Of a stretch of 64,000 nt of DNA, positions 2,400-27,049 are shown piece after piece. The notes under the pieces were generated by a model. That model was given only the letters and a program-made list of their open reading frames with translations. It did no database searches and was not told the origin of the DNA. The DNA comes from Mesorhabditis belari (lineage: Eukaryota; Nematoda; Chromadorea; Rhabditida; Rhabditidae), in assembly GCA_958450365.1 (NCBI GenBank), contig CAUEEP010000911.1, positions 310,001 to 374,000 of the forward strand, in the 5' to 3' direction. The translations under genes were made by a program, and so were the position numbers. Numbering within the stretch: position 1 is the first letter of the stretch; every line of letters begins with the position of its first letter.

Positions 2400-3062
2400 G
2401 GAATTGGATCAATTGCCAAATTATTCTATCGATCTGGAGCGCACACTAGCTGAAATGCTCAAAAAATTTCTCCAAAAGAGGATTTAAAAAAGCTCGTCAC
2501 TCAGCGGAGTCGAACCAGGACCCTATCGCTTACTAAAAATTTGCATAAAGCTAAAATCCAAAAACTGCAATGAGCTATGTGCGCTCCAGAACTCCCAAAA
2601 AATTTATTAGAATTTTCGTTTCTTAAAGAATTCCGCGCCTTTTTGATCCAAACTCATTTGTCTCACTCCACCCACTAATTTCATCAAATTTACCCAAAAC
2701 TTTTGCAACGATTCCCCAATGTGACTTCCATAATGGCGGAATATTTCAAAATTTTATTCACTCCATAGATAGTTTTCGAGAAAATCACTCAAACTCGGAT
2801 TTTTCCGGATTTAAGTTGGAATTGGATCAATTCCTGAATCATTCTATCGACCTGGAGCACACACTAGCTGAAACGCTCAAAAAATTTGTGGAAAAGACGA
2901 TTTTTAAAAATTTCGTTACTCAGCGGAGTCGAACCACGGACCTATCGCTTACTAAAAATTTGCATAAATCTAAAATCTAAAAACTGCAATGAGCTATGTG
3001 CGCTCCAGAACTCCCAAAAATTTTATTAGAATTTTCGTTTCGCAAAGAATTCCGCGCCTTTC
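2400..3062. repeat. Two-copy direct repeat with tRNA-like promoter boxes
   Basis: Copies at about 2400-2650 and 2818-3062 share roughly 240 bp. Each contains, on the minus strand, an A-box-like TAGCTCATTGCAG and an exact B-box-like GGTTCGACTCC. The second copy has the slightly altered GGTTCGACTCC context GTCCGTGGTTCGAC. Each copy also carries two CTGGAGCGCAC/GTGCGCTCCAG boxes. Probably a tRNA-derived repeat duplicated within the intron between the S1 and S2 exons. Confidence 0.6.
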
Positions 3063-3149
3063 CGGTCTAAACATGAATCAAATCATGGGAATTTGCAATT
3101 TCATGAAAATGGCTTCAGGAAAGCCTGCTATTGTTACAGTAATGCTCAC

Positions 3150-3280
3150 CCAACGTGATACAATTCAGAACAATTACGGCCATGGTGATCCGGTCGAACC
3201 ACGGGCTCATCACAGCTGTGAGAGCCCATGACCGCGGTGCGCTCGCCTGCTTTAGACAGTGAAGTGCCGGCTCGACGAAG
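3150..3280 (-). CDS. cca-1: T-type calcium channel, domain I pre-S1 and S1 exon
   Basis: Minus-strand exon, acceptor GATTTTCAG, donor G|GTGAGC, 131 bp. The product reads [18 protein letters not shown], then [17 protein letters not shown] and the S1 helix end IVLNCITLG. The RPRSW-like and NPWFDRIS-like sequences before S1 and the VLNCITLG ending are conserved in Cav3 channels. The exon opens with one base that completes a Ser codon from the preceding exon. It leaves one base that, with the next exon, makes the Gly before MYRPCED. Confidence 0.92.
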
Positions 3281-3865
3281 CTGAAAATCTCATATTTACA
3301 AATCGAACGCTTTCAAGAGCAAAACTGATATCCAGTTCCGCTGAAAACAAATCATTTACCCAAATTTTTCTATCAAATAAACATTTTCCGGGCTGATAAC
3401 GAAAAATTCACTCACAAGATCTCAAAAAGATGTCAAAAAGGTATTTCTAAAAAGGTAAAAACGTAAAAAAGCTTTGTGCTATCCAGATAAACGAAATTGG
3501 GTAAAAAAAATTGAAATTTCCGGCTTCTATGGGGTTTCTAGTGGCGCGAACCGTTGCGGTTGAAAGTCGGCTAGCGAATCGCTTGATTGCAGGGCTCTAA
3601 AGAGGTTCTAAAAAGCTAAAGTGATAGCCAGAACAAGACTTGGTTTGCTCTGGTAAGTGATCTGGTCTTGGGTTTTCTGAAAAAGTAGCCAAAACCAAAT
3701 CTAGTTTTCAGAAGACTTTATCGTTGATATTTTTCGATCAAATGAGTGAAACGAACCCAGGATACGGCAGCTCGGAAATCTCATCAGCTCCAATCTCGTA
3801 TTGATCATTGTCCAGTACCACATCTTCGTCTCCCCACTCGACTTGTTTCACGTGAGGGCTGGAAT

Positions 3866-3972
3866 GGAAATGGCTTTGGCTTTGGCCTTGTCTTTGGCCT
3901 TGTCTTTGGCCTTGTCTTTGGCCTTGTCTTTGGCCTTGGCTTTGGCCTTGGCTTTGGCGTTGGCTCTAAATA
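3866..3972. repeat. TTGGCCTTGTCT minisatellite
   Basis: About nine 12-bp units of the TTTGGCCTTGTC type, with GGC TTT variants. It lies in the intron upstream (minus sense) of the S1 exon. No gene content. Confidence 0.9.
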
Positions 3973-4118
3973 TGAAGGCTGGCGGACTAGGCTGGCTTCC
4001 CAACCCTAATCTGGTCTGATTGAACTTGAAACTTGAGTAGCAAAGCTATAATTAGACCTGGGCTTGGCTCTAACCTTGCCTGATTTCAACAGTGAAATCT
4101 GATTGTCCTGGTCCCAAA

Positions 4119-4217
4119 GCCTAAGCCTAAGCCTGAGCCAGAGCCAGAGCCTAAGCCTAAGCCTAAGCCAAAGTCTAAGCCAAGCCTAAGCCTAAGCCTG
4201 AGCCTAAGCCTAAGCCT
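4119..4217. repeat. Interstitial telomere-like (GCCTAA)n array
   Basis: Degenerate GCCTAA/GCCTGA/GCCAGA hexamers for about 100 bp. The reverse complement is TTAGGC, the canonical nematode telomere repeat. Variants are scattered, so it is old or not telomere-derived. It is located in the roughly 1-kb intron between the third and fourth recognised channel exons. Confidence 0.75.
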
Positions 4218-4294
4218 TGGTCCTAGAACTTATTTCGTTTAGAGCATCGTTTAGAGTCAGTACAGTCAGTCAGCATCGCTATTCTGCAACTAAC

Positions 4295-4377
4295 CTTGTC
4301 GGATAATCAGCTGATCGGAAGCTGGTCGACGGCTGCTGTGGCTGAGCCTCGAGACGAGACGGGGACCCATCTATCGA
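4295..4377 (-). CDS. cca-1: T-type calcium channel, N-terminal cytoplasmic exon 3
   Basis: An 83-bp minus-strand segment between the acceptor TTTTTTAG and the donor AG|GTTAGT. Translation in the frame required by its neighbours is open: SIDGSPSRLEAQPQQPSTSF then RSADYPT. It starts in phase 0 and leaves two bases, which with the first base of the S1 exon give Ser. The N-terminal tail of Cav3 channels is poorly conserved, so assignment rests on splice signals, phase agreement and GC content rather than similarity. It is low-complexity, rich in Ser, Pro and Gln, as expected for a disordered tail. Confidence 0.65.
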
Positions 4378-4624
4378 CTAAAAAAAACGGAATTACTCAA
4401 TTTCAACGATTTCAGTCGCTGGTGTGCTATCCAGCTTGCAGAAATTCAATTTTTGAATTTTTGAATCCAGTAGCAATTTGCATTTAAAGCACCATTGAAG
4501 CAATGCTGATTAAATGAAAATTGTTTCAATGACTTTTAATTGACACAAAAACAATCACAAATCTTAGTGTGCGCTCCAGATTGGCATAATTTTCGATTTT
4601 TTAAATCCCATTCCTGCGACCAAC

Positions 4625-4700
4625 CTCACTATCGGTCCTGCGTCGACTCTGCGATTGCCGGCGCTGCTGTGCGAGGCTTTGGCGTCTAGCGAAGGCTCCC
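4625..4700 (-). CDS. cca-1: T-type calcium channel, N-terminal cytoplasmic exon 2
   Basis: A 76-bp minus-strand segment after the acceptor TTGCTTCAG. The donor GAG|GTTGGT is weak. It encodes GAFARRQSLAQQRRQSQSRR then RTDSE, a basic Arg/Gln/Ser-rich stretch expected to be cytoplasmic. The first base completes an Arg codon from the upstream exon and the exon ends in phase 0, which fits the exon at 4295-4377. Assignment to the channel is by context and phase. Confidence 0.6.
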
Positions 4701-4763
4701 CTGAAGCAAAATTGACATATACAATATGTAAATTTTAAGAAAATCCAAATTTCCAGTACCCAC

Positions 4764-4828
4764 CTTGGACCCGAGTACTTGGAGAGGGCCTGGAATGAGC
4801 GCAGCTCCGAGACGGGCTGCTGCAGCAT
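4764..4828 (-). CDS. cca-1: T-type calcium channel, likely first coding exon
   Basis: A 65-bp minus-strand segment beginning with ATG directly after the acceptor TAAATTTCAG and ending at the strong donor AAG|GTGGGT. It encodes MLQQPVSELRSFQALSKYSG then PR. An ATG placed right at a 3' splice site suits either spliced-leader addition or a non-coding upstream exon. A GC-rich segment at about 4939-4985 (minus, acceptor CGTTTTCAG) could be that upstream exon but has only a weak donor. The intron to the next exon is 63 bp. Start choice is inferred. Confidence 0.55.
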
Positions 4829-5162
4829 CTGAAAATTTTTAAATTTCAATATTTTTCCTTAATTTTTAGTCTTTGTGATATCCAGGATCGGCTTTAATGC
4901 AAAAATTTTCTTGCCTTGTTCTTTTATTTTCCAAAAACGATCGTTCGGTGGGGCGCATCGGCGCCCGAGAGGCGCATTCACCTACCTGAAAACGGATGGG
5001 GTTGAGAGAAACTTGAAAACAATAAAGAAAGAGAGTTTAGAAATGTATCAAGAAACAGACAAGAGACAGAAAGAAAGGACAGGACAGGCTCAGGGAAAAG
5101 GTTGGATCAGAGTAGGCTCAGAGTAAACTAGTTCAGAGCCAGCGATCGATCAGAACCGATTA

Positions 5163-5392
5163 GCCAAGCTGACTTGACTGGAGCTGGCTTGACTGGAGCT
5201 GACAAGGAGCTGGCTTGACTGGAGCTGACAAGGAGCTGACAAGGAGCTGACAAGGAGCTGACAAGGAGCTGACAAGAAGCTGACAAGGAGCTGACTTGAC
5301 TGGAGCTGATAAGGAGCTGACTTGACTGGAGCTGACAAGGACCTGGCTTGACTGGAGCTGACAAGGAGCTGACAAGGAGCTGACAAGGACAG
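5163..5392. repeat. GAGCTGACAAG minisatellite
   Basis: About 20 units of the 11-mer GAGCTGACAAG mixed with a 15-bp variant GAGCTGACTTGACTG. Ser/Gln/Leu frames on the minus strand are repeat artefacts. It lies just 5' of the channel gene in the minus sense. Confidence 0.9.
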
Positions 5393-6067
5393 ACGAGGTC
5401 CAGTGATCTTCCGTGAGCTCTAAATGCCTTAAGCCAAGCCAGAAAGTCTAAGCCAAGGTCAAACCTGACCCTTGTCAAACCTTGTCAAGCTAAGCAAGAG
5501 CATAACCAGATTCAGGACATTGCTGGTGTTTGTTAGGCTCAAAGGGTTTTGATCCAAGGGGTGAACAAGTACTTGTACGCGGAGAGTTTTGCCAAAAAAG
5601 CAAAACAAAAGTCTTGCCAAAAAGGAACTCGAGCAAAGAAACGCGGCGCTCGTTTTGTATTAAAAAACTAAAAATCTAAAAGCAAGAATGTTATTGAAAA
5701 AACTGACGTCCAAAACAAGAGAAAAACGAGAGAAATCGCCGTTTTCCAGTCTCACCCCGTATCTCAGGGCAAGGCCGGAAGGCCGATTTTCCTCATGAAG
5801 AGTGTGGTGAGGGGAAATAATGGGGTGTGAGTGTTGTGTACTCCAGAAAAGAGATTGCATCCATTTTCTTGTCGATAAAGCGAAAAAAAAACGTGTGAAA
5901 AGACTGGGATTTGGATTCGATGGCTGAATGTGCATTTTTTTTGCGAGGCACCCATAAATGAGCCCCTGAGAATCGATGCTGAGTGACAATTTGGGGATTT
6001 TTGATTTCCCAGAAAGGGGTTGTTTAATGAAAACGGATTTTTGAAGGGAAAGAGAGTGAAAACCAAA
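5393..6067. other. No convincing gene
   Basis: AT-rich with scattered purine runs. A short minus-strand segment around 5758-5800 (frame HEENRPSGLALRYG) ends at the donor-like GTGAGA, but it is too short and isolated to call. One CTGGA-box (TGTGTACTCCAGA) lies near 5843. Confidence 0.4.
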
Positions 6068-6990
6068 TGGGGGGTAGCGAATCGGGGAACCGAATGGGGG
6101 ACCGGATCGGGGGAACGAATGGGGAACCGAATTGGTGAACCGAATCGGGGAACCGAATGGGGGTAGCGAATCGGGGAAACCAAATGGTGGAAATCGAATC
6201 GGGGAACCGAATGGGGTAGCGAAGCGGGGAAACCGAATAGGGGAACCGAATGGGGAAGCCGAATCGCAGGAATCGAATGGGGGAACCGAATGGGGGAACC
6301 GAATGGGGAACCGAATAGGGGAACCGAATGGGGGGAACCAAATCCGAGGAGCCAAATCCGAGGAGCCAAATCCGAGGAGCCAAATCCGAGGAGCCAAATC
6401 CGAAGAACCAAATCCGGGGGAATCGAATGGGGGAACCGAATGGACGGAACCAAATCCGAAGAACCAAATCCGAAGAACCAAATCCGAGGAAACAAATCCG
6501 AGGAACCAAATCCGAGGAACCAAATCCGGGGAACCAAATCCGAAGAACCAAATCCGAGGAAACAAATCCGAGGAACCAAATCCGAGGAACCAAATCCGGG
6601 GAACCAAATCCGAAGAACCAAATCCGAAGAACCAAATCCGAGGAACCAAATCCGAGGAGCCAAATCCGAAGAACCAAATCCGAGGAACCAAATCCGAGGA
6701 ACCAAATCCGGGAAACCAAATCCGGGGAACCAAATCCGGGGAACCAAATCCGAGGAACCAAATCCGGGGAACCAAATCCGAAGAACCAAATCCGGGGGAA
6801 TCGAATGGGGGAACCGAATGGACGGAACCAAATCCGAAGAACCAAATCCGAAGAACCAAATCCGAGGAAACAAATCCGGGGGAATCGAATGGGGGAACCG
6901 AATGGACGGAACCGAATCCGGGGGCACCGAATCGGGGGGCACCGAATCGAAGGAGCCAAATGGGGAACCGAATGGGGGAACCGAATTAAC
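6068..6990. repeat. 14-bp GAACCAAATCCGAG satellite
   Basis: About 920 bp of 14/15-bp units: GAACCGAATGGGGG at the edges and GAACCAAATCCGAG in the centre. A larger block (GGAATCGAATGGGGGAAC and following units) recurs near 6418, 6790 and 6880. Because 14 is not a multiple of 3, all six frames are nearly free of stops, so long open frames on both strands (up to 426 codons) are artefacts. Confidence 0.95.
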
Positions 6991-7784
6991 AAAAGAAAGA
7001 CTGGATAAAGATGCTGACCGACTTGGAGCATGAAAAAAGCTCAAAGGATTCGATTTTTGTAACTTTCAAAAGGTTTCTGTTTCAGTTAAATCAGTCAACT
7101 TTAACTAATCAGTTAAATAACGAAAATTTCAAGGGTTTTACGTGCTTACTTGAGAAAAGCATCAAGAAAAAGTAGTAATACATTTTTTGACATCAAGGAA
7201 ACCCATTTTCTTGAAGCAAAGAACCAGGAATTTCCCGAATTTAGCATTCGCATTCAGTTGCTTTAACTTTAAGCTCTAGGATAGGCCTAGAACTCAAAAT
7301 CTAAAGAACCCGAAAGTGTTCGTCTCGGAAAATCGTTGAAAAACTATCCGGGGAAGTTGTTATAAACGAAAACTGAAAGTAAACGACTGCAGCTCGCAGC
7401 TGAGCTTAATCCTGCTCAAAATCCCGAACTTTCCCCCGTTTTCTAGCTATTTTTCGTCGTTTTTCCATTTGAAGTAATCGATTTCATAATTGCCGGTCCC
7501 GGGCCAGAAGAAAAGAACAAAAAAAAAATATAATTCCTCCTCTTTTCTGCGCGGAAATTTTCCCATTTTCTTGGATTGCTCGTCCAAGGACGAAATGCCA
7601 CTGGAATCACTGAAATCGGGGGAAATTTTTGTCATTTTTGCCAAGCTGGAGTCCACAGTACAGTTTTGATAAGTTGAAAATTGAAAATTTGAAAATTTGA
7701 AAATTTTGAAATTTTGAAGTTTTGAAAATTTTGAGAACAATTTGGTGAGCATAGAATGTTAATTCTTAAAGAATCGTTGCAATC
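6991..7784. other. No convincing gene
   Basis: Mostly AT-rich. A minus-strand stretch at about 7545-7610 reads DSSGISSLDEQSKKMGKF after an acceptor-like CGATTTCAG but has no matching donor. A small GAAAATTT run lies at 7675-7735. Confidence 0.4.
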
Positions 7785-8210
7785 GTTGAAATTCCTAAAG
7801 AATTAGCTACTGTGACTTCCAGATAGATGAATGTAAGCAAAAATGAATCAAAAAGAGATCAGTTTTTGACTCAAAACTTGACCGAAAGGGACGAGAGTCG
7901 ACGGAAAAAATTTAATCGACCAAAGTCGTTGAAATTCCTAAAGAATCAGCTATTGTGACTTCCAGATAGATGAATGTAAACAATAATGAATCAAAAAGAG
8001 ATTAGCTTTGGCCTCAAAACTTGGCCCAAAGGGACGCAGGTTGAGGTGGAAAATCTGATCAGCCAAAAATCGTTGAAATTCCTAAAGAATCAGCTATTGT
8101 GACTTCCAGATAGATGAATGTAAACAATAATGAATCAAAAAGAGATTAGCTTTGGCCTCAAAACTTGGCCCAAAGGGACACGGGTTGACTGATCGAAAAT
8201 GGCCGGTTCT
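7785..8210. repeat. 143-bp satellite, three units (TGTGACTTCCAG box)
   Basis: The phrase GTTGAAATTCCTAAAG recurs at 7785, 7928 and about 8072, giving periods of 143-144 bp. Each unit contains one TGTGACTTCCAGATAG box, the complement form of CTGGANNNCA. The unit sequence is unrelated to the satellites at 13.4, 14.6 or 21.6 kb apart from the box. Confidence 0.9.
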
Positions 8211-8260
8211 TGAGAGGGAAAAGGGGAAAAGGGGAAAAAAGGTTGGGTTTTCCTTGAAAG

Positions 8261-8334
8261 TGCCATCGAATCGAGGCATTGGAGAGATTGAGGAGAATCG
8301 GGGAAAAGAGAAACATATGTTTCGTGCAATCGAG
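8261..8334 (+). CDS. Exon-like segment of unknown gene
   Basis: Preceded by TTTTCCTTGAAAG and followed by the strong donor-like GAG|GTGAGG. Two frames are open (VPSNRGIGEIEENRGKEKH in one). I do not recognise it, and no partner exon can be joined with confidence. It could be chance in a purine-rich stretch. Confidence 0.2.
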
Positions 8335-8732
8335 GTGAGGGGACAATCGGGAATTGACTGGAGAAAGAGGGCCGATTTTTTTTTGGAGATTTTGCCTAAA
8401 AAAATGTTGAAAAACGGTTGCGTGCGCTCCAGAATGGCCAAAAATCGGTTCTGAGCCGCGTTTCAGCGATTGTTTCTTGGTGATTTTTGCTCAAAATCCC
8501 GAAAAACCGTGAGTGTAATGAAAAATCGATTCGGGTCGCGTTCCAGCTTGACGTAAAACATTGTTTTCTTTCTAAAGCTTGAGAATCCCTTACAAAATAG
8601 TCGGGAGCTCGATAGAAAAATGGAAAAATCCGTTTTCAATCCATGGCAACCATGGCAAAAAATTGGGAATCCTTCAAAAAATAGAAAAAACTTTCGAAAA
8701 CGTAGAAAATCCATGAAAGTTTTAAAAAATGT

Positions 8733-9215
8733 TGTTAATAGCTAGCGTGCGTTCCAGATCGCACAAAAAAAATTCTAAAATGAATTAGAGTGTTCTAGAA
8801 GCTTTAGAACGGCTAAACTCAATGCCCAAAAAAATCAAACTCAGAAAGTGAACATTTCGCCTTCCAAAAGTCACCAATAGCCAGCGTGCCTTCCAGTTTG
8901 GCCAAAAAAAACTCAAAAACTGAATTAGAGTGTTCTAGAAGCTTTAGAACGGCTAAACTCAATGCTCAAAAAACCAAACTCAAAAAATTAGCATTTTGCC
9001 TTCCAAAAGTCACCAATAGCTAGCGTGCGTTCCAGTTTGGCCAAAAAAACTTCAATTCTCATGAGTTTTCAAGAATTTTCTCACAAAATTCGCCTCCAAC
9101 TTGAAAGGGGAAAAATTTTTGAATCGAATTTTAAGGGGAATCTTCCCAAAGCGCATCAATAGCTAGCGTGCGTTCCAGTTTCGCCAAAAATACATCAATA
9201 GCCAGAAATGCGTTC
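8733..9215. repeat. About 140-bp satellite (GCGTGCGTTCCAGTTTGG box)
   Basis: AATAGCTAGCGTGCGTTCC and near copies occur at about 8733, 8876, 9014 and 9158, with a partial unit near 9189. Shared flanking text includes TTAGAGTGTTCTAGAAGC and CTAAACTCAATGC. One CTGGA-box is present per unit, on the complement strand. Confidence 0.85.
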
Positions 9216-9524
9216 CAATTTTTGGCAAAAAAGAACCCCGTGGATGGCCAAAAGGCAATTTTGCTCATTATTCCCAGAGAAAAGGGGTTAATCCATTTCC
9301 ATGGAAAATCAATTGGCTCCGAGGATGCTTTTGTTTTTCGCGAATCCATGAGAAAGCCCGGGAAAGACGGAGAAATCGAAAAAAACCATTTTCGGAAGAG
9401 AAAGAAAGCAAACGGAAAAGTGGAGAAAAATGGGAATTATGGGATTTTGAAAGTCAGCTTTTGGGTCTTTAAGATTTACCTCCAAAAAAATGAGAACGGT
9501 TGGCCCAATTTTGGCCCTCTAAAG

Positions 9525-10985
9525 GCCCATCTACGCCTTCTGAAAGCCCCTCTAGGCCTTCTGAAAGCCCTCTAGGCCTTCTGAAGGCCAATCTAGGCCC
9601 TCTGAAAACCCCTCTAGACCTGCTGAAGGCCAATCTAGGCCTTCTGAAAGCCCCTCTAGGCCTTCTGAAAGCCCCTCTAGGCCTTCTGAAAGCCCTCTAG
9701 GCCTTCTGAAAGCCCTCTAGGCCTTCTGAAAGCCCTCTACGCCTTCTGAAAGCCCCTCTAGGCCTTCTGAAAGCCCTCTAGGCCTTCTGAAAGCCCTCTA
9801 GGCCTTCTGAAAGCCCTCTACGCCTTCTGAAAGCCCCCTCTAGGCCTTCTGAAAGCCCTCTAGGCCTTCTGAAAGCCCTCTAGGCCTTCTGAAAGCCCTC
9901 TAGGCCTTCTGAAAGCCCCTCTAGGCCTTCTGAAAGCCCTCTAGGCCTTCTGAAAGCCCCTCTAGGCCTTCTGAAAGCCCTCTAGGCCTTCTGAAAGCCC
10001 TCTAGGCCTTCTGAAAGCCCTCTAGGCCTTCTGAAAGCCCCTCTAGGCCTTCTGAAAGCCCTCTAGGCCTTCTGAAAGCCCTCTAGGCCTTCTGAAAGCC
10101 CTCTAGGCCTTCTGAAAGCCCTCTACGCCTTCTGAAAGCCCCTCTAGGCCTTCTGAAAGCCCTCTAGGCCTTCTGAAAGCCCTCTAGGCCTTCTGAAAGC
10201 CCTCTAGGCCTTCTGAAAGCCCCTCTAGGCCTTCTGAAAGCCCTCTAGGCCTTCTGAAAGCCCCCTCTAGGCCTTCTGAAAGCCCTCTAGGCCTTCTGAA
10301 AGCCCTCTGGGCCTTCTGAAAGCCCTCTACGCCTTCTGAAAGCCCCTCTAGGCCTTCTGAAAGCCCTCTAGGCCTTCTGAAAGCCCTCTAGGCCTTCTGA
10401 AAGCCCTCTACGCCTTCTGAAAGCCCCTCTAGGCCTTCTGAAAGCCCTCTAGGCCTTCTGAAAGCCCTCTAGGCCTTCTGAAAGCCCTCTAGGCCTTCTG
10501 AAAGCCCTCTACGCCTTCTGAAAGCCCCTCTAGGCCTTCTGAAAGCCCTCTAGGCCTTCTGAAAGCCCTCTAGGCCTTCTGAAAGCCCTCTAGGCCTTCT
10601 GAAAGCCCCTCTAGGCCTTCTGAAAGCCCTCTAGGCCTTCTGAAAGCCCCTCTAGGCCTTCTGAAAGCCCTCTAGGCCTTCTGAAAGCCCTCTGGGCCTT
10701 CTGAAAGCCCTCTACGCCTTCTGAAAGCCCCTCTAGGCCTTCTGAAAGCCCTCTAGGCCTTCTGAAAGCCCTCTAGGCCTTCTGAAAGCCCTCTACGCCT
10801 TCTGAAAGCCCCTCTAGGCCTTCTGAAAGCCCTCTAGGCCTTCTGAAAGCCCTCTAGGCCTTCTGAAAGCCCTCTAGGCCTTCTGAAAGCCCCTCTAGGC
10901 CTTCTGAAAGCCCTCTAGGCCTTCTGAAAGCCCTCTAGGCCTTCTGAAAGCCCTCTAGGCCTTCTGAAAGCCCCTCTAGGCCTTC
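9525..10985. repeat. 20/21-bp satellite CTCTAGGCCTTCTGAAAGCC
   Basis: About 1.46 kb, more than 70 units of the 20-mer CTCTAGGCCTTCTGAAAGCC. A 21-bp form has one extra C, and ACGCC and GGGCC point variants occur. The 21-bp and ACGCC variants recur in the same order every few units (compare 10100-10330 with 10500-10720), indicating higher-order amplification. The 309 bp before it (9216-9524) are AT-rich with no gene seen. Confidence 0.97.
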
Positions 10986-11439
10986 TAAAGTCCCCCCAAG
11001 TGCCAGTGCCATAATTGTGAGCCACTCTGTAGTTTTATAGCTGACAGAGACCGGGATGTAAACCAGAAACAAGGCTCGGTCAGGCAAGACTTGAACTTCC
11101 TAGCTAGGACCCGGTTGGACCACTTTTGCCACTCACCTTCAAAATCCGTTTTCGGCTTGCTCAAATCCCTTTCTAAGGCCAGGGTAGACTAGGCCGTGTC
11201 CAGCTCACATTTTTGCGCCATTTAGTCTAGCTTGCAACCTAGATCACGAGTTAATCAGGTCAGCTAAACCTGGCCTGTCAAACGGCTCAAACCTAGGCCT
11301 AGTTTAGGTACAGATTGAGCGAATTAGCTGAGAACCAGGAATGTACGAAACGCAAAATGTCCAGGTCAGGCCGGAAGTCAGGATCTAGCCTGACCCTGGC
11401 CTGGTTTTACTTTTGAAACCAACCTAGGCCTCCCAGAAG
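10986..11439. other. No convincing gene
   Basis: Unique-looking sequence with many short AGGCCTAG and TAGGCC words, perhaps decayed satellite. No splice-flanked open frame was found. Confidence 0.4.
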
Positions 11440-11636
11440 CTAGGCCAGCCAGAAGCCAGTCCAGCTAGAAGCCAGTCCAGCTAGAAGCCAGTCCAGCCAG
11501 AAGCCAGCCCAGCTAGAAGTCAGTCCAGCTAGAAGCCAGTCCAGCTAGAAGCCAGTCCAGCTAGAAGCCAGTCCAGCTAGAAGCCAGTCCAGCTAGAAGT
11601 CAGTCCAGCTAGAAGCCAGTCCAGCAGCTGGCCTGG
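11440..11636. repeat. 16-bp AGCCAGTCCAGCTAGA minisatellite
   Basis: About 12 units of AGCCAGTCCAGCTAGA with minor variants (AGTCAG, CAGCCAGA). Confidence 0.92.
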
Positions 11637-12003
11637 CTTAATGACTTTTTCGTCCATCCCTGGTTAGACGCAGGTCTATGGGGTCTCAGGCTTAGGATCT
11701 CGCAACTTAAAGATCTATAATCATGCCCCAAAAATGCACCCACCCAGGGAAAGCTTTGATTTCAGAGACAAAAAAAGGCGATGTGTCTGTTTTGTGTGTA
11801 TAGAGTGGGCGGTAAGAAAAGGAAATGGATTGTTGAAGAGATCGCGTTGCGTCCATCTCCTTTTTTTGGGGCCTAAGAATCCTCGAATCTCTCACAACCC
11901 TTTACGCTGTCGTTGCCCTTCCCACTCCAGCCTTCTTATCCTCAGCATTGCTCTGCCCAGTTCCCCCTCCAGTTCCCCCTCAGCCACATTTTCTGTCCCC
12001 CAG

Positions 12004-12121: not shown

Positions 12122-12361
12122 GTACAACTATTTAGGATTCAAAATCGATGCAAGGTTAGAAATTATTTAATCAATGGCTTCTGTGAGGTCCAGGATGAGT
12201 AATTTGATCAAAGAGAGCTGTTAGAAAGGAGGAGTTGATCAAGAATTGGAGTAGATATCTAGTCTTCACTCTTAAAAAGTTTTTTGCGGCTTTTTGCGGT
12301 TTATTTTTAGGTTAACGACCTGTGTGATATCCAGGATTACCAAATTCAATCAAAAAATAAA

Positions 12362-17214: not shown

Positions 17215-17640
17215 ATGGCCGACATAGTCAAATCTGGATTTCATGGAAATGCCCTCGAAACAAAGTAATTTTATAGTGTGACTTCCAGCTTGACTGATAA
17301 GTGTGTTTTGGAAAGTCTTGTAGTTCAGGAAGGTTGTTAAACTTGACCAAAGTCGAACGGCCGACATAGTCAGATCTGGATCTCATGGAAATGCCCTCGA
17401 AACAAAGTAATTTTATAGTGTGACTTCCAGCTTGACTGATAAGTGTGTTTTGGAAAGTCTTGTAGTTCAGGAAGGTTGTTAAACTTGACCAAAGTCGAAC
17501 GGCCGACATAGTCAGATCTGGATCTCATGGAAATGCCCTCGAAACAAAGTAATTTTATAGTGTGACTTCCAGCTTGACTGATAAGTGTGTTTTGGAAAGT
17601 CTTGTAGTTCAGGAAGGTTGTTAAACTTGATCAAAGTCGA
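17215..17640. repeat. About 143-bp satellite, three near-identical units with two boxes each
   Basis: The phrase GTCGAACGGCCGACATAG and following 140 bp repeat three times with very few differences. Each unit holds ATCTGGATCTCATGG and, about 50 bp later, TGTGACTTCCAGCTTG, so the box is present in both orientations. High identity suggests recent amplification. Confidence 0.92.
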
Positions 17641-17681
17641 ACAGCATTATCGCCCTCACCAAAAAGAAAGGTGGGGGCAAT

Positions 17682-18480
17682 AATACTCCCAAACAAAACT
17701 ATTAAGTGATATTAAGTAAATGAGGTGTATTCTAGTGTTCTATTCTAGTATTCTCTTTTTCAATTCCCCTCCCGGGTTTCATCCTAATATAGTATTTACG
17801 GTAAGCTGCAAGATGGGAATGAGCAAATCAAAACTTTTTGCTATTTATTTAATTTTTGGGTGATCTGGAACGCACAGCAAATTATGGGGTAAATAGAATA
17901 ACGAAATTGGGAAAGGATAGGTTTTTGGGAAATAGTCGGAAGTTCTCGAGCTCTAATAGGCAAAATTGCCAGTGAAAAACCTCGTTTGCATTGATTTTTG
18001 ACCGATCTGGAACGCACAGCAAATTATGGGGTAAATAGAATAACGAAATTGGGAAAGGATAGGTTTTTGGAAAATAGTCGGAAGTTCTCGAGCTCTAATA
18101 GCCAAAATTGCCAGTGAAAAACCTCGTTTGCATTGATTTTTGACCGATCTGGAACGCACAGCAAACTATGGGACAAATAGAATAACGAAATTGGGGAAGG
18201 ATAGATTTTTGGAAAATAGTCCGAAACTCTAGTAGCTTTAACCAGTAAAATTGCTAAAGAAAGATTTGTTTTTGTTTAATTTTTGAGCGATCTGGAACGC
18301 ACAGCAAACTATGGGACAAATAGAATAACGAAATTTTGAAAGGATAGGTTTTTGGAAAATAGTCGGAAGCTCTCATAGCTTTAACAGCTCTAATAAGCAA
18401 GATTGCCAATGAAAAACCTTGTTTACATTTATTTTGGCCAATCTGGAACGCACAGGAATTTTTGGCCAATCCAGAATGCC
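17682..18480. repeat. Satellite block B, segmental copy of block A
   Basis: From AATACTCCCAAACAAAAC the sequence matches 14845 onward, including CCCCTCCCGGGTTTCATCC and the following CTGGAACGCACAG units at about 17870, 18008, 18150 and 18293. The insert and satellite units were therefore copied together. Confidence 0.92.
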
Positions 18481-18814: not shown

Positions 18815-19150
18815 CAATTGAATGTGACATCCAGATCCGCAAATTTTTGATTCAAAATGGGAAAAGCTTTTGTTTGGCGAGAGTTGAAGGCTTGATCTCA
18901 GAATGATTGAAGCCAACTTCTTCAAAAGCTTCTCTTTATCAAAAAAAATGATCAACTAGTCGAATGCTATCCAGATCAGCAAATTTTTGATTCAAAATGG
19001 GGAAAGCTTTTGTTTGGTGAGAGTTGAAGGCTTGGTCTCAGACTGGTTGAAGTCAACTTCTTTAAAAACTTCTCTTTATCAAAAAAAAATGATCAACTAG
19101 TCGAATGCTATCCAGATCGGCAAATTTTTGATTCAAAATGGGGAAAGCCT
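18815..19150. repeat. About 141-bp satellite (GCTATCCAGATC box)
   Basis: Three units with TCCAGATCNGCAAATTTTTG at about 18829, 18970 and 19112, preceded by AAAAATGATCAACTAGTCG in two of them. One box per unit. Confidence 0.88.
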
Positions 19151-19914
19151 TTGGAAATCAAAAGTTATGGACTCAAAATCGGACTGACTCTGACTCTGAC
19201 TGACTCTGACTGACTCTGACAGACTCTGACAGACTCTGACAGACTCTGACTTCGGCCAGGTCAAACCAACCGACTCAAATTTGCTTTTCGTTACCAGAAT
19301 CGGAAAGTTGATGCTAACTTTAGACAAATCTATTCTCAAATTGAACGTTTGCTTCGAATTAAAAGAATAAATTGGGTAATTGAACCAGGGAAACAACCAG
19401 AAATTTGCCATTTGCCACCCTCAACTCCGAATCAAAACAAATGACGAGAGCAAGCGGAAATCCGCCTTCACTCTAGCCTTTTTTCGTCTTTTCCTTATTT
19501 TTCGTCTTTTCCTCATTTTTTGGGTCAGTTGGCACACGCGTTTCGCATTCTTTTCCCCTTGGAAAAGCAATGAGTGAACTTTTGAAGAGAAAAAAAAACA
19601 ACATTCTTGCCATTTTTCTGGCTAGATTGTTGTCATTTGGTGATGGAAGATCAATTACGCGCTGGATGACTGAAAAGTGAAAAGCGCTGGATGAAAATGT
19701 TTACTCAAAATTCGCTTATTCGGCAAATTTTCAGTGAGTAACTCGGGGTTTGAGTCATGCAAAAATTTGTGAAGTCTGAAAAAGCCTGAAAAGGTTTTTA
19801 AGCTAAGATTTTTTAAATATTCAAATTAACGACTTTTCTTTTTATCTGGATGCCAAAAGCCAAAAAATGGCATTATTCTGGAAAGTTTCTGGATTTCTGG
19901 AAAGATTAGACAAA
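19151..19914. other. No convincing gene; small GACTCTGACT array
   Basis: A short 10/11-bp array (GACTGACTCTGACA) lies at about 19183-19250. The rest is AT-rich without splice-flanked coding sequence. Confidence 0.4.
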
Positions 19915-20575
19915 GCTAGGTCCGACCAGGCCAGGCTAGACCAGGCTAGACCAGGCTAGACTAGACTAGGCTAGACCAGGCCAGGCTAGACTAGGCTAGA
20001 CCAGACCAGGCTAGACCCGGCTAGACCAGGCTAGACCAGGCTAGACCAGGCCAGGCTAGACCAGGCTAGACTAGACCAGGCTAGACCAGGTTAGACCAGA
20101 CCAGGCTAGACCCGGCTAGACCAGGCTAGACCCGGCTAGACCAGGCTAGACCAGGCTAGACCAGGCTAGACCAGGCCAGGCTAGACCAGGCTAGACCAGG
20201 CTAGACCAGGCTAGACCAGGCTAGACCAGGCCAGGCTAGACCAGGCTAGACTAGACCAGGCTAGACCAGGCTAGACTAGACCAGGCTAGACCAGGCTAGA
20301 CTAGACCAGGCTAGGCCAGGCTAGGCCAGGCTAGACCAGGCCAGGCTAGACCAGGCTAGACTAGACCAGGCTAGACCCGGCTAGACCAAGCTAGACCAGG
20401 TCAGTCCAGTCCAGTTCAGTCCAGGCTAGACCAGGCCAGTTCAGTCCCGCCTAGAGCAGACCGGTTCAGTCTAGTCTAGACTAAGCCAGGCCAGTCCAAG
20501 CTAGACCAGGCCAGTTCAGTCTAGGCTAGACCAGCCCAGTTCAGTCCAGCCTAGACCAGGCCAGGCTAGCCTTGT
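19915..20575. repeat. 10-bp CTAGACCAGG satellite
   Basis: About 660 bp of CTAGACCAGG with CCAGG, CTAGACTAGA and CCCGG variants, drifting to CAGTCCAGTTCAGT at the right end. Confidence 0.95.
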
Positions 20576-20889: not shown

Positions 20890-21630
20890 AATGGGGAAAG
20901 AGGGGCGAACACCCACCCCTATTTCTCAATTCTTGGGAAAGGGAAAACCCTTTTCCTTCAAGGGGAAAGGGTTTTTCCCATTCAAGGCCTTGCAAAAAGT
21001 CATCCACGTTGATATGCAGTTGTTATGGAGAAAAGTTGAAGCTATTAAATTTAGGAAAAAGTCTTTGCCAATTTTCTAGGTCTTAAACTTGTCCAATCTG
21101 GACGCGCCATAGCTTATTTGAAAGCTAATCTTCTAGCGAATTGAATAGAAAAGACCGTTTGTTAATTTATCAATTTTAAAATTTTTTGCAGAGGTTTTAC
21201 TGAGTGGCGTCAGAGTCCAAATCTCAAAAAGAGTAATTTTTTCATTTTTTTGCACAGAAACCTAAGCTGAAACCATGTTTTTCGGAATCAGCGTTAAAAA
21301 TTACTCTAGCTCGTTCTTTTAGAGCAAAAAAAACACAAAGCTTGTTCGCTTACAAAATTTTTTTTTAAAAAAAAGGACCAAAGTTTAAAATGTGAATTTG
21401 AACCTAAAAAAGCAAAATTTCCTAAAAAAGCAAATTTTTCCAAAAATCTCCAAATTCTTTGTATTTTTACTACAAATCCTTGCATCATTTTTGCCAAAAA
21501 ATAGCCAAAAAGTCCAAATGTTTGTGGAAAGTTGGATAATTAAACCGATCCAAAGCCAAAATCGCGTCTGATGATTTACAATGATTTACAATGATTTACA
21601 AAAGCCCCAAAAGAAATCGGACTTTAATCT
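20890..21630. other. No convincing gene
   Basis: Contains a strong hairpin at about 20938-20979 (GGGAAAACCC...GGGTTTTTCCC) and one CTGGA-box (CTGGACGCGCCA, about 21102). Otherwise AT-rich. Confidence 0.4.
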
Positions 21631-21634
21631 GCAA

Positions 21635-22110
21635 TAGCTCTTCAAATTGGATGTCACAGCTTTTGTTTTGAGCGTTTCAAGTGGCTGACGTGCATTTTCT
21701 TTGTTAGACAACTTGCGTAATTAAACCGACCGCTTTTTACAAAGCTTCAAAAGAAAATGGACTTCAATCTGCAATAGCTCTTCAAATTGGATGTCACAGC
21801 TTTTGTTTTGAAAGTTTTGAGCAAATGGCGAAAAAATTTCTAAACCGGGCAAGTTGCGTAATTAAACCGGCTGTGTTTTACAAAAGGCCAAAGAGGAAAT
21901 GGACTTCAATTTGCAATAACTCTTCAAATTGGATGTCACAGCTTTTGTTTTGAGCGTTTCAAGTGGCTGACGTGCATTTTCTTTGTTAGACAACTTGCGT
22001 AATTAAACCGACCGCTTTTTACAAAGCCCCAAAAGAAAATGGACTTCGATTTGCAATAGCTCTTCAAATTGGAAGTCACAGCTCTTGTTTTGAGCCTTTC
22101 AAGCGGATGG
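21635..22110. repeat. 141-bp satellite (TTGGATGTCACAG box)
   Basis: ATTGGATGTCACAGCTTTTG or close variants at about 21645, 21786, 21927 and 22068, with constant spacing of 141 bp. Shared unit text includes GCAATAGCTCTTCAAATT and TTGCGTAATTAAACCG. The first base of the box has changed from C to T here, but the rest is retained. Confidence 0.93.
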
Positions 22111-22469: not shown

Positions 22470-22585
22470 TCTCCATCATTTTCTCCCATTTTCTCCCATT
22501 TTCTCCATCATTTTCTCCCATTTTCTCCCATTTTCTCCCATTTTCTCCCATTTTCTCCCATTTTCTCCCATTTTCTCCCATTTTC
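22470..22585. repeat. 10-bp TTTTCTCCCA minisatellite
   Basis: About 11 units of CCCATTTTCT with ATCA insertions. Confidence 0.95.
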
Positions 22586-23304
22586 TTGTCGTTTCTGGGA
22601 AAAATGGCAAATTTAAATGCGACTCCTGGATGGCATTGCTTGTTTTTGAGGGGGAAATCTCTTTGAGAAACGTAAATTTTCGAAAGCACAGCAAAACGAA
22701 AGCAATACTTTAAGTTTTTCTTTAGATGGCGTCAAGAAGAGTAAAAGCAGGATCAAACAACGAAAAAGAGCAAATTAAAAATCCTGATTAAGAATCCTAA
22801 TTAAAAACCCTGAGGCGAGAAAATCCTGAGGCGAGAAAATCCTGAGAAACTCACCTGAGATCGAGTTTTGGCAAAAAGGAGAGATGCGGGAAATTCCCGA
22901 GGGAAAATTTTGAGAGCTAAGCCAAAATAAGACTCGCATCTGGTTATCGACTGAGAAGGAAGTGAACAATTTTGATTGATATTTGACTGATAGGAAGTGA
23001 ACAATTTTGACAATGAAGAATGAAGAAAAGAAGAACAATGAAGAACAATGAAGAAAACATCTCAAAAATGGAGGTGGAGTTGACCCCATTGGACCATTGG
23101 TTTCTTGGATTTGCACGGGATGATCTCAAGGTTTGCCTCTCGAGACGGTAGCTTTATTGAAGTTGATCAAGGCAATCAGGGCACTCATCCCATTCAATGA
23201 AAAGGAGAACTGTTTGTCAAGACCAAAGTCTAGGAGTTAAACGATAGTTGGCTCAGGGATTGATTCAAATACCGTAAAAACGTTAATCGTTTTGGTCGGA
23301 ACGT
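22586..23304. other. No convincing gene
   Basis: AT-rich. GAGAGCTAAGCCAAAATAAG followed by ACTCGCAT occurs here at 22911 and again at 23926. Confidence 0.4.
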
Positions 23305-23485
23305 CGACGACGACGGAATCGTCGGAATCGTCGGAATCGTTGGAATCGTCGGAATCGTCGGAATCGTCGGAATCGTTGGAATCGTCGGAATCGTCGGAAT
23401 CGTTGGAATCGTCGGAATCGTCGGAATCGTCGGAATCGTTGGAATCGTCGGAATCGTCGGAATCGTTGGAATCGTTGGAATCTTC
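23305..23485. repeat. 9-bp GGAATCGTC/GTT minisatellite
   Basis: About 19 units of GGAATCGTC with a GGAATCGTT variant recurring every two to three units (a 27-bp superperiod in places). Because the unit is 9 bp, it gives Ser-Glu-Ser frames on plus and Asp-Ser-Asn/Asp frames on minus. I see no flanking gene structure. Confidence 0.93.
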
Positions 23486-23811
23486 GGAATTCTGGATCAT
23501 TTGCCATTCTGGATCATTCGTGATTCTGGATCAATCGTGACTCTGGATCATTCGTGATTCTGGATCAATTGCCATTCTGCTTCATTCGTCTGCATCGTTC
23601 GTCTGCATTACTCGTCTGCATCATTCTGCACGTCTTGAATGACTTCTTTAATGACTTATGAGCTCTTTAGGCAGAGACAACAGTCAACAGACAACAACAA
23701 TCCATTAGAAATCAATCTCCATTGAAGAAGTTTTTAAATTTTTGGTTTTTCTCATGTTCATCATCCATTCTTCATACAAATGACGAATCTTTGACTTTTA
23801 ACGAAAGCGGA

Positions 23812-23915
23812 CTACGATAAATCAGCTTGTTCAAAGAACTTGGCTTGTTCCATCAGCACCACAACATCATCACCACAATGTCCAATATCAACGACTTGAG
23901 TTTCTTCTTGGTGTG
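23812..23915 (-). CDS. Possible terminal exon of unknown gene
   Basis: Minus-strand acceptor CGAATTTCAG followed by an open frame reading HQEETQVVDIGHCGDDVVVL then MEQAKFFEQADLS and a TAG stop. Composition is protein-like. No upstream exon could be joined, and the family is not recognised. A plus-strand segment at about 24172-24252 after TTTTCCCCTCAG (frame IPSKKRSHQASIGVENDLS) is a similar unplaced candidate. Confidence 0.25.
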
Positions 23916-24795
23916 CTGAAATTCGAGAGCTAAGCCAAAATAAGACTCGCATTTCCCTTGCACCGGTCCACTCAAACAATACCCAGACAATACCCAGACT
24001 TGACCTCAATTCACTTCTCCGCATTTTCTGATTTCAGAGCTTTTCTGATTTCCCGCAAACGTTGCAAGATATATCTTTCCTTTCGATTCGTAAAAATGGC
24101 ACTCAATGGGTGTCAATCTCTCTCTTTTCTCTCTCTTTTCTCTCTCTTTTCCCCTCAGCCATCCCCTCGAAAAAACGCTCTCATCAAGCGTCGATTGGGG
24201 TGGAAAATGATCTCTCGATCCTGGCTCGAGTTGAGATGAGATATTCAAGAATGGGTGAAAGGCAAGAATTTGAAAAATGAAAAAGGGATTTACTAGAGAA
24301 AGGCACAGGTCAAGGTGGTCTCTCAGATTGAAATAAATTAGGTAAAGGGTTCCTGTCCTGTTCTAACAGATCCCATATCGTTTCTTGTACTCAAAGTCAT
24401 TCCGATTAACACAACCCTGACAACAAAGAATCATTTGCATAAAATTTGAATTGATTTTCACTATTTTATGGACTTCAATTCCATTTTATAGAATTAAATT
24501 CCATTTTAAAGAATTCAATTCAATTTTATAGAATTCAATTCCATTTTCCGTATTGAATTCCATTATTTTTGACAAAAACAGTTCGTGAATCGTGAACAAT
24601 CTTCCAGCAACAAAGAACAATTATGAAGAAAAGCATTTCTTGTAGCATTTCTTGAAGCATTTCAGTTCTTGAATCATTTCTAAACATTAATCTAAACATT
24701 CTTCCGTTAATCAAAGTCAAAACAAATCAATCCTGATGGCATAAACATTTCTAATCATTTCTAATCATTTTCTCAAAAAAAGAAAACGAATCCAC
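23916..24795. other. No convincing gene
   Basis: Contains CTCTTTTCTCT runs at 24115-24160 and five AATTCCATTTTATAGA-like near-repeats at 24475-24555. Confidence 0.4.
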
Positions 24796-24872
24796 TGGGA
24801 GAGGACTCGAACCTGGGGAAGAAATGGTGAGCAAACTATCCACGGCTGAGCACACTATCCACTGCGCCATTA
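24796..24872 (-). pseudogene. tRNA-like pseudogene
   Basis: The minus strand has A-box-like TGGCGCAGTGGATAGTGTGC and an exact B-box GGTTCGAGTCC. The D-arm region is duplicated (GTGGATAGTGTGCTCA, then GTGGATAGTTTGCTCA) and the acceptor stem does not pair. Decayed tRNA or SINE head. Confidence 0.5.
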
Positions 24873-24982
24873 CCCTCTTTTTCTCCTCGAGAGAAAAGGC
24901 TTATAAGGAATCGGCCCTTGAGAGGAAAAGACGCGGAAAACCCGCACAAAACCCGCGAAAAAGCAACAGCTTCAACTTGTAG

Positions 24983-25055
24983 ATATGGTGCACTGCCAGA
25001 GCGTCTGTCTCTCGCTCCGTGCATTGAGGGTTCGAGTCCGCTTGCGACTTTCGAG
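24983..25055 (+). pseudogene. tRNA-like pseudogene
   Basis: A-box-like TGGTGCACTGCCAGAGCG and exact B-box GGTTCGAGTCC at tRNA distance. A second A-box-like copy without a B-box follows at about 25078 (TGGTGGACTGCTAGAGCC). Acceptor and anticodon stems are not convincing. Confidence 0.45.
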
Positions 25056-25577
25056 TTTTGCAAATCAATTTGTTCTCATGGTGGACTGCTAGAGCCTCTC
25101 TATCTCCGATCGTTTTTTAAAGTAGCGTGAGAATTCTCAAAAATCAATTTCAGAAGCAAAGTCAGAAGTTTAAAATCATTCGACAACAATTCGATGAATG
25201 GTGAAAAGGTAAAAATCGAGTTTCAGACTACCCAACTGCCATGTTTTCGCGAATAAATCGAAATTTAAAAAATGGATAGACTTTAGTAGACTCAAAGTAA
25301 ATTTTAAGAAAAAAAACGCAATCAAAACACGTTTAACGCGGAAAATGCAACTTTTTTGAGCTTTCACTCGTCAGAAAAGACTTTTAGAAACACTTGACTT
25401 GTAGAGTACACAGAGTTTTACCCAAAAAAAAAAATTTTGAAATTTTGAAATTTGAAATTTGAAAAGAATTTTGATTCAACAATGAAAAAAGATTTCAGAG
25501 AGCTCGTTTTCGTCGAAAATTGTTTTTTAAAAAGCGGAGAAGCATGATTTCAATGATCTTTTGGTGTTTTGCTTTAG

Positions 25578-25673
25578 GAAAAAAACTAGTAAAGATTGGG
25601 CTGAACCCCTTTTGGAAAGCACTTATCCTTTTTTCGGGCAAAAGGGAAAATTGCTGCTGGAGGGCGGCTGGGG
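25578..25673 (+). CDS. Exon-like segment with good splice sites, unknown gene
   Basis: Bounded by the acceptor TTTTGCTTTAG and the strong donor GGGG|GTGAGTG. Two frames are open; one reads KKTSKDWAEPLLESTYPFFG then QKGKLLLEGGW. Not recognised; no partner exon found. The 12-bp minisatellite starts 50 bp further on. Confidence 0.3.
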
Positions 25674-25724
25674 GTGAGTGCACGCGATCCGGCCAGATCA
25701 TCCATCTGGAAGGAGCCTTGGGGA

Positions 25725-25955
25725 AGGAGAGGTTGGAAAGGGAAGCTGGAAGGAGCCTTGTGGAAGGAGAGGTTGGAAGGAGAGGCTGGAAGGAAAGGCT
25801 GGAAGGAGAGGCTGGAAGGGAAGGCTGGAAGGAGAGGCTGGAAGGAAAGGCTGGAAGGAGAGGCTGGAAGGAGAGGCTGGAAGGGAAGGCTGGAAGGAGA
25901 GGCTGGAAGGAAAGGCTGGAAGGAGAGGCTGGAAGGAGAGGCTGGAAGAGGACTG
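25725..25955. repeat. 12-bp AGGCTGGAAGGA minisatellite
   Basis: About 19 units of AGGCTGGAAGGA with AGG/AAG and GGA/GGG variants. All frames on both strands are open because the unit is a multiple of 3 without stops. Confidence 0.95.
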
Positions 25956-27049
25956 GGCCCTTCTCCAGCCAAGGTAAACCCTGAGCTGTCTTTTTCCCAC
26001 CAGTTATGGAATCTATGGATGCCATTGGGAAAAGCCTCGATGCCAAGATTGCATGATTTGCGTTTTGGGGAGACTCTGTTTTCACCAGTGATGAGTTTGA
26101 GAGGAAATCTCGAGAATGAGAAAGATGAAGCTCAATTTCATGTGAATGATCTTTTATTTTGGAAGGCAGGAAGGCTGATTTTTGGTCGTTTTCTTGGAAA
26201 TTTGAAAATTGAGAAAAATTGCTGCTCCAGGTCGGTGGCTTTTCTACAACACTATTAGTCAAAAATTTTACACACAGCCTGCCTTGTGCGCTCCAGAAAA
26301 GCTATTTAGCTAGAGATTTCACCCAGATTTGCACTACATCCACCAGAAAAAGCGTCAGCCTAAACAACCGACAAAATTTGTCCGCCAGCGTTTCTGCTTG
26401 GACCCAAACTTGTTTATGCCCAAGATTATGCTGTAAACCTGCTTTGTGCCCTCCAGAAAAGCTAATCAGCCAAAATTTGACCCAATTTCACCACATTTTA
26501 GTTAGAAAACGGCTCAATTTCCTAGAGAAAAAAAAACCAAAAAACAAAAAAACAAAAACTTCAAAATTGAAACCGGAGAATTTTTGCTGTGAATTAGAAA
26601 TTCTCGGGCAATCCCGGGATTGAATTTTTCAAAGAAAATTTTCTGGGGAAATCTTTTTGAAAGTCGAGGGGAAAATGGGGGGAAACTGCATGCAAAAAAA
26701 AGCGGGAAGGAAGAGGAAAACATGGAGAAAAGGGGGAAATGCGATACATTTCCCCAACTCAGCCCCAGTCCCAGTCAGCCATTGCACCAAACGAACCGGC
26801 CAGACCTTTCTTTTCACTTCCGTAGGCAGATTTGACCGGGATTTGCAAAAAAAAGCTGTTGTGCCTTCAAGTTTAGCTGGCTAGCCGCAGAAGGCGATCT
26901 AAAATCGATTTTCTAGAAATTAACAATCTGATCAATTGCAATTTTTATATGCTAAGAATAAGAGAAATCCAAATAAGAAAAATCCAAAGTTTGGTTCAAA
27001 TCTGTCTACTCAAAAAAAAGTTAATAAGGTGAACACGTTTCCAGGCCAG
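25956..27049. other. No convincing gene; two box-bearing near-repeats
   Basis: CCTTGTGCGCTCCAGAAAAGCTA at about 26283 and CTTTGTGCCCTCCAGAAAAG at about 26440 head two roughly 150-bp diverged repeats. A decayed box lies at about 26860. No splice-flanked coding sequence was recognised. Confidence 0.45.

Follow-up and report, generated by a model that had tools for sequence, protein, structure and literature searches.

A short sequence box common to unrelated satellites of the nematode Mesorhabditis belari is spaced at about 142 bp and in helical steps

We analyzed a 64,000-nucleotide stretch of the Mesorhabditis belari genome (assembly GCA_958450365.1, contig CAUEEP010000911.1, positions 310,001 to 374,000 of the forward strand; hereafter the window, whose own numbering is used throughout) in which a short box, CTGGANNNCAY, recurs in tandem satellites and in the DNA between them. 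The box is enriched, is clustered in the stretches sampled and is conserved within arrays, and little sequence is shared among its flanks. Neighboring boxes keep a first spacing step of about 142 bp whatever their relative orientation, short gaps fall into helical steps, and A/T content is phase-locked to the box. On balance, we favor the reading that the box is a binding site for a sequence-specific chromatin protein, kept in register with nucleosomes.

The box and the satellites that carry it

Between positions 2430 and 26450, both strands together hold 55 matches to CTGGANNNCAY, against a mean of 1.25, and never more than 4, in 100 second-order Markov simulations of that stretch. The rest of the window (26451-64000) holds 9 (expected 1.2, maximum 5), of which seven lie inside related F-box-like open reading frames when match positions are compared with the frames. 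Tandem Repeats Finder located nine arrays with a period of 139-144 bp, one of them organized as a 437-bp higher-order unit. The array units carry the box, which in the array at 21.6 kb starts with TTGGA in place of CTGGA. After the boxes were masked, local alignment of the units found one clearly homologous pair among 36 (the arrays at 15.0 and 17.9 kb, score 358); three further pairs, all involving the 16.2 kb unit, scored 1-6 points above the highest of 60 shuffles, and the remaining 32 did not exceed it. The nine arrays are eight families without clear homology, those at 15.0 and 17.9 kb forming one family, so that satellites with no other recognizable homology have the same short box in common. 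The original prediction, of unrelated satellites with a common period near 142 bp and a common box, is borne out, and it stands up to the comparison of box density with shuffled sequence; its eight satellite families are real, but it had missed the array at 17.9 kb. Many boxes outside arrays hold the same spacing, among them 4424/4569 (145 bp), 12183/12324 (141 bp) and the oppositely oriented 2434(+)/2579(-) (145 bp).

Across 113 flank-independent groups the core reads CTGGA-N-(C/G)-(G/T)-CA-(C/T), its constant letters being fixed by the search pattern. Counting from the first box base, positions -10 to -8 and +19/+20 lean toward T, -4 toward C, -2 toward A/T and +14 toward A, all less strongly than the core, giving an extended box of about 32 bp around the 11-bp core, approximately WTTT-N3-CRAT-CTGGANNKCAYA-N2-A-N4-TT. 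Conservation within arrays was measured in 47 pairs of array copies picked by their flanks alone, 42 of which had an intact partner box. Mismatch was 0.032 at fixed box positions and 0.099 at variable ones, compared with 0.110 in near and 0.169 in far flanks, the far flanks being those that defined the pairs; mismatch was low, too, where T is preferred at -11 to -8 and +19/+20. A constrained box with free flanks and nucleosome-scale spacing, as originally proposed, is supported by the box density, the unit alignments and the flank identity given below.

The 207.6-Mb assembly (714 contigs) holds 4,379 forward and 4,658 reverse matches to one exact form, CTGGANNKCACA, a total of 9,037, against 61 + 34 = 95 for the reversed pattern; since some genes are present in several assembly copies (identical Piwi matches on three contigs), such counts may include haplotypes. 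Twenty ten-kilobase stretches were sampled on six contigs known to contain one box variant and so not drawn at random: 13 had no boxes, four had one or two, and three had 11, 32 and 17. Among 20 stretches of 2.5 kb, 12 had none, six had 2-13 and two were at or below the reversed control. The box loci from the initial genome search represent 8 of 71 matches, and their densities are likewise not those of a random genome sample. Across these samples the boxes occur in clusters, and box-bearing samples gather on contig C548 (3.2-3.4 and 3.7-3.8 Mb) and contig C569 (1.6-2.2 Mb). Separately, the variant GATCTGGAACGCACAG recurs on contig C688 at 297666-328304, 633479-665319 and 850718-853133 with similar internal spacing, which suggests large duplicated segments.

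Spacing of the boxes and the A/T phase around them

Boxes were collected with a position matrix that yielded 282 matches in real and 2 in shuffled sequence, figures to be read knowing that it was built from the boxes it then finds; 13 of its matches lie in the window at 27001-64000. Removing 99 pairs with homologous flanks left 155 gaps between neighboring boxes, of which 72 measured 130-169 bp, 2 measured 200-289 bp, 24 measured 294-353 bp and 11 measured 443-523 bp. Relative orientation was then considered by random placement between the two outermost boxes of each locus, which stayed in place, with homologous and duplicate pairs kept and a later-fetched 6 kb (see below) included. Half of the opposite-orientation neighbors (46 of 92) were 125-190 bp apart, where random placement gave a mean of 12.2 and a maximum of 24 in 1000 trials, and only three were 191-280 bp apart (12.4 expected, random minimum 3). 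Tandem duplication does not account for the spacing of such opposite-orientation neighbors. Diverging non-homologous pairs keep the first step as well, with 11 of 33 gaps at 130-169 bp.

Short gaps are further subdivided at about the pitch of the double helix. In opposite orientation they cluster near 131, 141, 152 and 164 bp with a period of 11.1 bp, matched by none of 3000 smoothed nulls (before the later data were added, 9 of 2000 nulls did as well), and in same orientation they have a period of 10.4 bp (0 of 2000 nulls); the same-orientation test and the opposite-orientation test before the later data omitted opposite-orientation gaps of 195 bp (twice) and same-orientation gaps of 183 and 198 bp. 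For all 54 gaps of 200-700 bp, periods of 170-190 bp fit about equally, and 1 of 2000 uniform sets matched them. The later-fetched 6 kb, beside a dense locus, contained 27 boxes and hence 26 gaps: with homologous pairs and array copies included, 17 were 130-173 bp, one was 187 bp, none fell in 188-281 bp, six were 282-337 bp and two were 445-473 bp.

The A/T fraction around 112 independent boxes swings with a 10.4-bp period that extends to both sides of the box, with an amplitude of 0.073 compared with a null maximum of 0.032 (0 of 1000) and with 0.006 at 428 CTGGA occurrences outside boxes. Peaks fall near -52, -42, -31, -22, -10, +19, +30, +41, +50 and +58. In 73 stricter groups, the best symmetric fit has a period of 10.35 and is centered at +4.25, near the box center, failing at the outermost right-hand position. 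In the later 6 kb, the A/T profile of 15 mutually independent boxes correlates with the earlier profile at 0.70, a value reached by none of 2000 rotations. Box spacing is quantized and accompanied by an A/T period of ~10 bp locked to the box, as would be looked for in a nucleosome phasing element, the quantization being weak past the first step in opposite orientation.

Where the nucleosome would sit relative to the box is hinted at by the midpoints of 71 gaps, which are richer in G+C (A/T 0.53, compared with 0.73 beside the box), with a slight second A/T rise at the middle of two-step gaps (n = 24). This pattern may place nucleosomes between boxes, with the box at a nucleosome edge. The 10.4-bp phase itself fits an edge and a dyad alike, because half of the 142-bp step comes to nearly a whole number of helical turns.

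Layout of the box domain and its neighbors

At the left end of the domain (2434-3008), two converging pairs, 2434(+)/2579(-) and 2852(+)/2998(-), the latter 146 bp apart, are copies of each other and lie outside the ~142-bp arrays. They are followed within 3476-7656 by six single boxes at 3476(-), 4424(-), 4569(-), 4875(-), 5836(-) and 7646(+). Family 1 (7781-8189, minus strand) has a period of 144 bp and the box CTGGAAGTCAC. Family 2 (8737-9218, minus strand) has a period of 139 bp in the array at 8737-9055, the box CTGGAACGCAC or CTGGAAGGCAC, extra boxes at 9168 and 9208, and an adjoining single box at 8422. Three single minus-strand boxes at 12183, 12324 and 12849 (12183-12859) precede family 3 (13356-13943, plus strand; period 143 bp, box CTGGATGTCAT). 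The first array of family 4 (14607-15780, plus strand) has a period of 143 bp at 15009-15685, the box CTGGAACGCAC and outlying boxes at 14607, 14749, 15745 and 15770; its second array lies at 17862-18455 (plus strand, period 142 bp). Between these two arrays are family 5 (16187-17012, minus strand), whose 437-bp higher-order unit has three boxes ~142 bp apart, and family 6 (17207-17642, both strands), whose 142-bp unit has two boxes of opposite orientation 44 bp apart. Family 7 (18824-19153, minus strand) has a period of 140 bp in the array at 18829-19153 and boxes CTGGATGTCAC and CTGGATAGCAT, and family 8 (21595-22103, plus strand) has a period of 140 bp and the box TTGGATGTCAC, with one copy reading TTGGAAGTCAC. 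The last CTGGANNNCAY matches of the domain, at 22626(+), 26286(-) and 26446(-), extend it to 26456. Many minisatellites with units of ~8-30 bp stand beside the ~142-bp arrays, at 5167-12722, 19931-20569 and 22477-28903.

A gene for a T-type voltage-gated calcium channel has an exon on the minus strand at about 2100-2300 (best PDB match alpha-1H, 1.3e-32), and the boxes at 3476-7656 likely sit in introns or the upstream region of this gene. tRNA-like fragments, recognized by eye from B-box-like sequence, occur between or near the converging boxes at 2481-2560, 2900-2960 and 3160-3260; ARAGORN found no tRNA genes in the window, and an Rfam scan of the window at gathering scores returned no matches. 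An interstitial telomere-type repeat, a degenerate (AAGCCT) run of ~17 copies, lies at 4117-4217. Nematode telomeres usually consist of TTAGGC repeats, and six such units have 2,641 overlapping matches genome-wide. To the right of the domain, 27000-64000 contains a run of seven or more related F-box-like open frames, mostly on the minus strand, with a coding repeat in which CTGGATGTCAT mimics the box; of two frames scanned, one passes the Pfam F-box cut-off. Two plus-strand boxes at 43977 and 44058, 81 bp apart, lie outside both the main domain and these frames.

Candidate explanations for the box

If the box is a protein binding site as we favor, the predicted protein would bind it, and the bound box would position the nucleosomes to its left and right. 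Boxes would then be held in step with nucleosomes by selection or exclusion. Adjacent boxes enclose one nucleosome-sized stretch of ~131-187 bp, in steps of ~11 bp with a mode of 142 bp; gaps of 190-280 bp are avoided, and longer gaps gather at ~295-350 and 440-525 bp. Where boxes cluster, here over about 24 kb, they would form ordered chromatin domains that include likely introns of a gene. Tandem duplication of almost any sequence would be tolerated if it carried a box in register, and the duplicates would persist as satellites; unrelated satellites would therefore have only the box and the period in common. The domains would serve chromosome behavior, whether heterochromatin, meiotic pairing or the kinetochore. 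We infer the nucleosomal ruler, the dedicated binding protein, the selection and the role in chromosome behavior from the DNA alone.

Several observations weigh against this explanation. Mirror symmetry, which a dyad should show, is weak (0.31 at the box center, 0.37 at -0.5), and 33 boxes with no neighbor within 200 bp have a 10.4-bp signal of only 0.044, their strongest tested period being 12 bp (0.059). The second step (281-355 bp) has no excess in opposite orientation (9 compared with 7.6 at random) and a mild one at most in same orientation (23 compared with 15.4, random maximum 30), so that support for any later step comes chiefly from the empty interval preceding it and from the 1-in-2000 test. 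The later 6 kb was picked beside a known dense locus, and its 15 boxes are independent of one another but not necessarily of the earlier ones. Some opposite-orientation pairs copy one another, and a flank correlation of 0.074, discussed below, suggests that a few groups of boxes have a common ancestry. A step of 142 bp is shorter than the 147-bp nucleosome core, and canonical nucleosomes would have to overlap, partly unwrap or be sub-octameric; the step either counts against simple nucleosome packing or marks a special particle. Lastly, a histone-free looping or wrapping protein would also yield helical steps.

We rank second, and consider rather unlikely, the alternative that M. belari uses the box as its version of the nematode piRNA promoter (Ruby) motif. 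The box would then descend from the 3' half of the small nuclear RNA (snRNA) promoter element bound by SNAPc, the clusters would be piRNA clusters and the spacing would come from nucleosomes between small promoters. The nematode piRNA promoter is thought to have arisen from that 3' half (PMC6436959). From stretches upstream of 9 U1, 5 U2, 7 U5 and 8 U6 genes, the snRNA element of this genome reads AATCGC...(T/A)TCTGGC(R)CA. AATCGC is present in all nine U1 stretches, and the CTG-C part in seven of them, at -44, as well as in six of seven U5 (as CTGGC or CTGAC) and one of eight U6 stretches; the element is missing from the other seven U6 copies and one U5, and its CTG-C part from two U1. In four of nine U1 copies the 3' half is CGATCTGGCGCA, which resembles CGATCTGGANNGCA. 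This half looks like the box but has a spacer two bases shorter, CTGG-N2-CA in snRNA promoters and CTGG-N4-CA in the box, and U2 promoters have TCTGGG (3 of 5) or TCTCGC (2 of 5). U2 snRNA genes themselves, with 46 scored matches in total, lie on contigs C641, C286, C521 and C598, many in tandem steps of ~1.5 kb.

The genome does encode a PIWI-clade Argonaute, identified as a PIWI protein by its best match to Siwi (3e-18), and the copy number, clustering and likely intronic location of the boxes fit the piRNA loci described in PMC6436959. Ruby clusters are, as described there, short clustered motifs numbering ~10^4 with possible kinship to the snRNA element, as here; yet their core differs, and the box lacks a start-site signature and has stepped spacing and tandem units. 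The same paper reports that most Piwi-bearing nematodes have Ruby-core-like motifs of the C. elegans type. In this genome the canonical core CTGTTTCA, of the GTTTC type, is not in excess genome-wide (8,794 matches compared with 10,166 for its reverse). A piRNA promoter is expected to be followed at a fixed downstream distance by a YRNT start. Among 112 boxes, YRNT at +46, near the expected start, is the most frequent single offset in 35-70 (16 of 112), but columns alone predict 15.0, other offsets reach counts of 18-23, offsets 42-50 sum to 67 where 82 are expected, and in that region 0.48 of boxes have a YRNT within the best 8-bp window, compared with 0.32-0.47 elsewhere; no start-site signature was found at these offsets. 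We place this alternative below the favored one because diverging pairs also keep the first spacing step (11 of 33, as above); the A/T period, too, runs both ways from the box.

Still less probable, in our estimation, is a meiotic pairing-center motif for a HIM-8/ZIM-like zinc-finger protein, with a box-rich region on each chromosome. The box is a 12-mer whose design is like that of the C. elegans HIM-8 motif, which it matches at 4.81 of 12 positions in register, compared with 2.93 for shuffled 12-mers, with much of this owed to a common TGG. Box-bearing samples do gather in limited regions of contigs C548 and C569, but among the first 100 places listed, boxes lie on many contigs in small scattered groups. 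We know of no nucleosome-stepped spacing at pairing centers. The C. elegans motifs are clustered 12-mers bound by HIM-8/ZIM proteins (PMC9071541; compare Pristionchus pacificus, PMC8455136); those centers have a known binding protein, chromosome position and function, whereas the box is known here from sequence.

Descent of every family from one ancestral satellite, with the box as its least decayed part, is very improbable, even with the period alike everywhere, the three unit pairs slightly above shuffles and a slight correlation of left with right flank similarity (0.074, null standard deviation 0.029, maximum 0.091 of 200). Mean pairwise flank identity is 0.288, the value also obtained after shuffling within columns, and three flank pairs exceed 0.42 where 1.2 are expected. 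The 36 unit pairs contain no intermediates between families, flanks have in common an A/T phase rather than sequence, and inversion at random breakpoints would blur the spacing that opposite-orientation neighbors keep. Neither flank identity nor box-masked alignment supports a single ancestor of all the families, and in this respect too the original claim survives. It is likewise very improbable that the boxes are the terminal inverted repeats of a mobile element, in the form of small non-autonomous transposons. Converging pairs, 2434/2579 for example, resemble inverted ends ~156 bp apart, but same-orientation and diverging pairs have the same first step, on which ground we reject such ends, no target-site duplication was seen by eye at 2434/2579, and insertion into linkers is expected to lengthen spacing, not shorten it.

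The resemblance to a CENP-B box that had been suggested did not hold up, and this identity is rejected: similarity to the 17-bp CENP-B box is 9.14 of 17, hardly above the 8.87 of shuffled sequence. The essential CENP-B bases are TTCG....A..CGGG, and here 5.47 of 9 are matched compared with 5.09 after shuffling. The Meloidogyne box is reportedly 19 bp long. Alpha satellite (CENP-B consensus from PMC9673304) likewise has a box in nucleosome-sized units; here, by contrast, there is no similarity clearly beyond shuffles, the unit families are unrelated and orientation is mixed. Also comparable are divergent Meloidogyne satellites, nematode sequences that share a Box 1 or CENP-B box-like motif and little else (PMC3694981; PMC9673304). 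In that genus 11 satellites give a holocentric, chromosome-wide fluorescence in situ hybridization signal (PMC9673304), whereas boxes here are clustered in the samples. The M. belari box also differs in its ~9,000 exact copies of one form, many of them outside arrays, in both orientations and with a ~142-bp step and helical sub-steps, and in its host genome, which has TTAGGC repeats; by the comparison above it has no CENP-B likeness, and the contrast with the Meloidogyne box is drawn from published descriptions of the latter.

Nucleosome arguments have been made for satellites in general (PMC3634726), and satellite turnover (PMC4595182) and elimination motifs (PMC13370393) have been treated in Caenorhabditis. 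Within the accessible parts of the literature on satellite boxes, nucleosome-satellite links and nematode satellites, we came across no box of this kind whose spacing is both independent of orientation and stepped with the helix.

Returning to the binding-site explanation, a stronger form of it is one that we put forward tentatively. The genome may encode a nucleosome ruler, in which thousands of boxes at nucleosome distances, in helical steps and either orientation, would draft satellites and single-copy DNA into one regular chromatin array, and the sub-nucleosomal step of 142 bp might reflect a special particle, for example a nucleosome of centromeric type. That unrelated satellites can share a conserved box is already known, and the purpose of such boxes has usually been guessed. 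Here the DNA suggests that position and rotational setting are constrained, rather than flank sequence. Since the first step is also kept by non-homologous pairs and by pairs in opposite orientation, selection on spacing can be separated from common descent, and the question of why satellite units are so often nucleosome-sized becomes directly testable in one worm.

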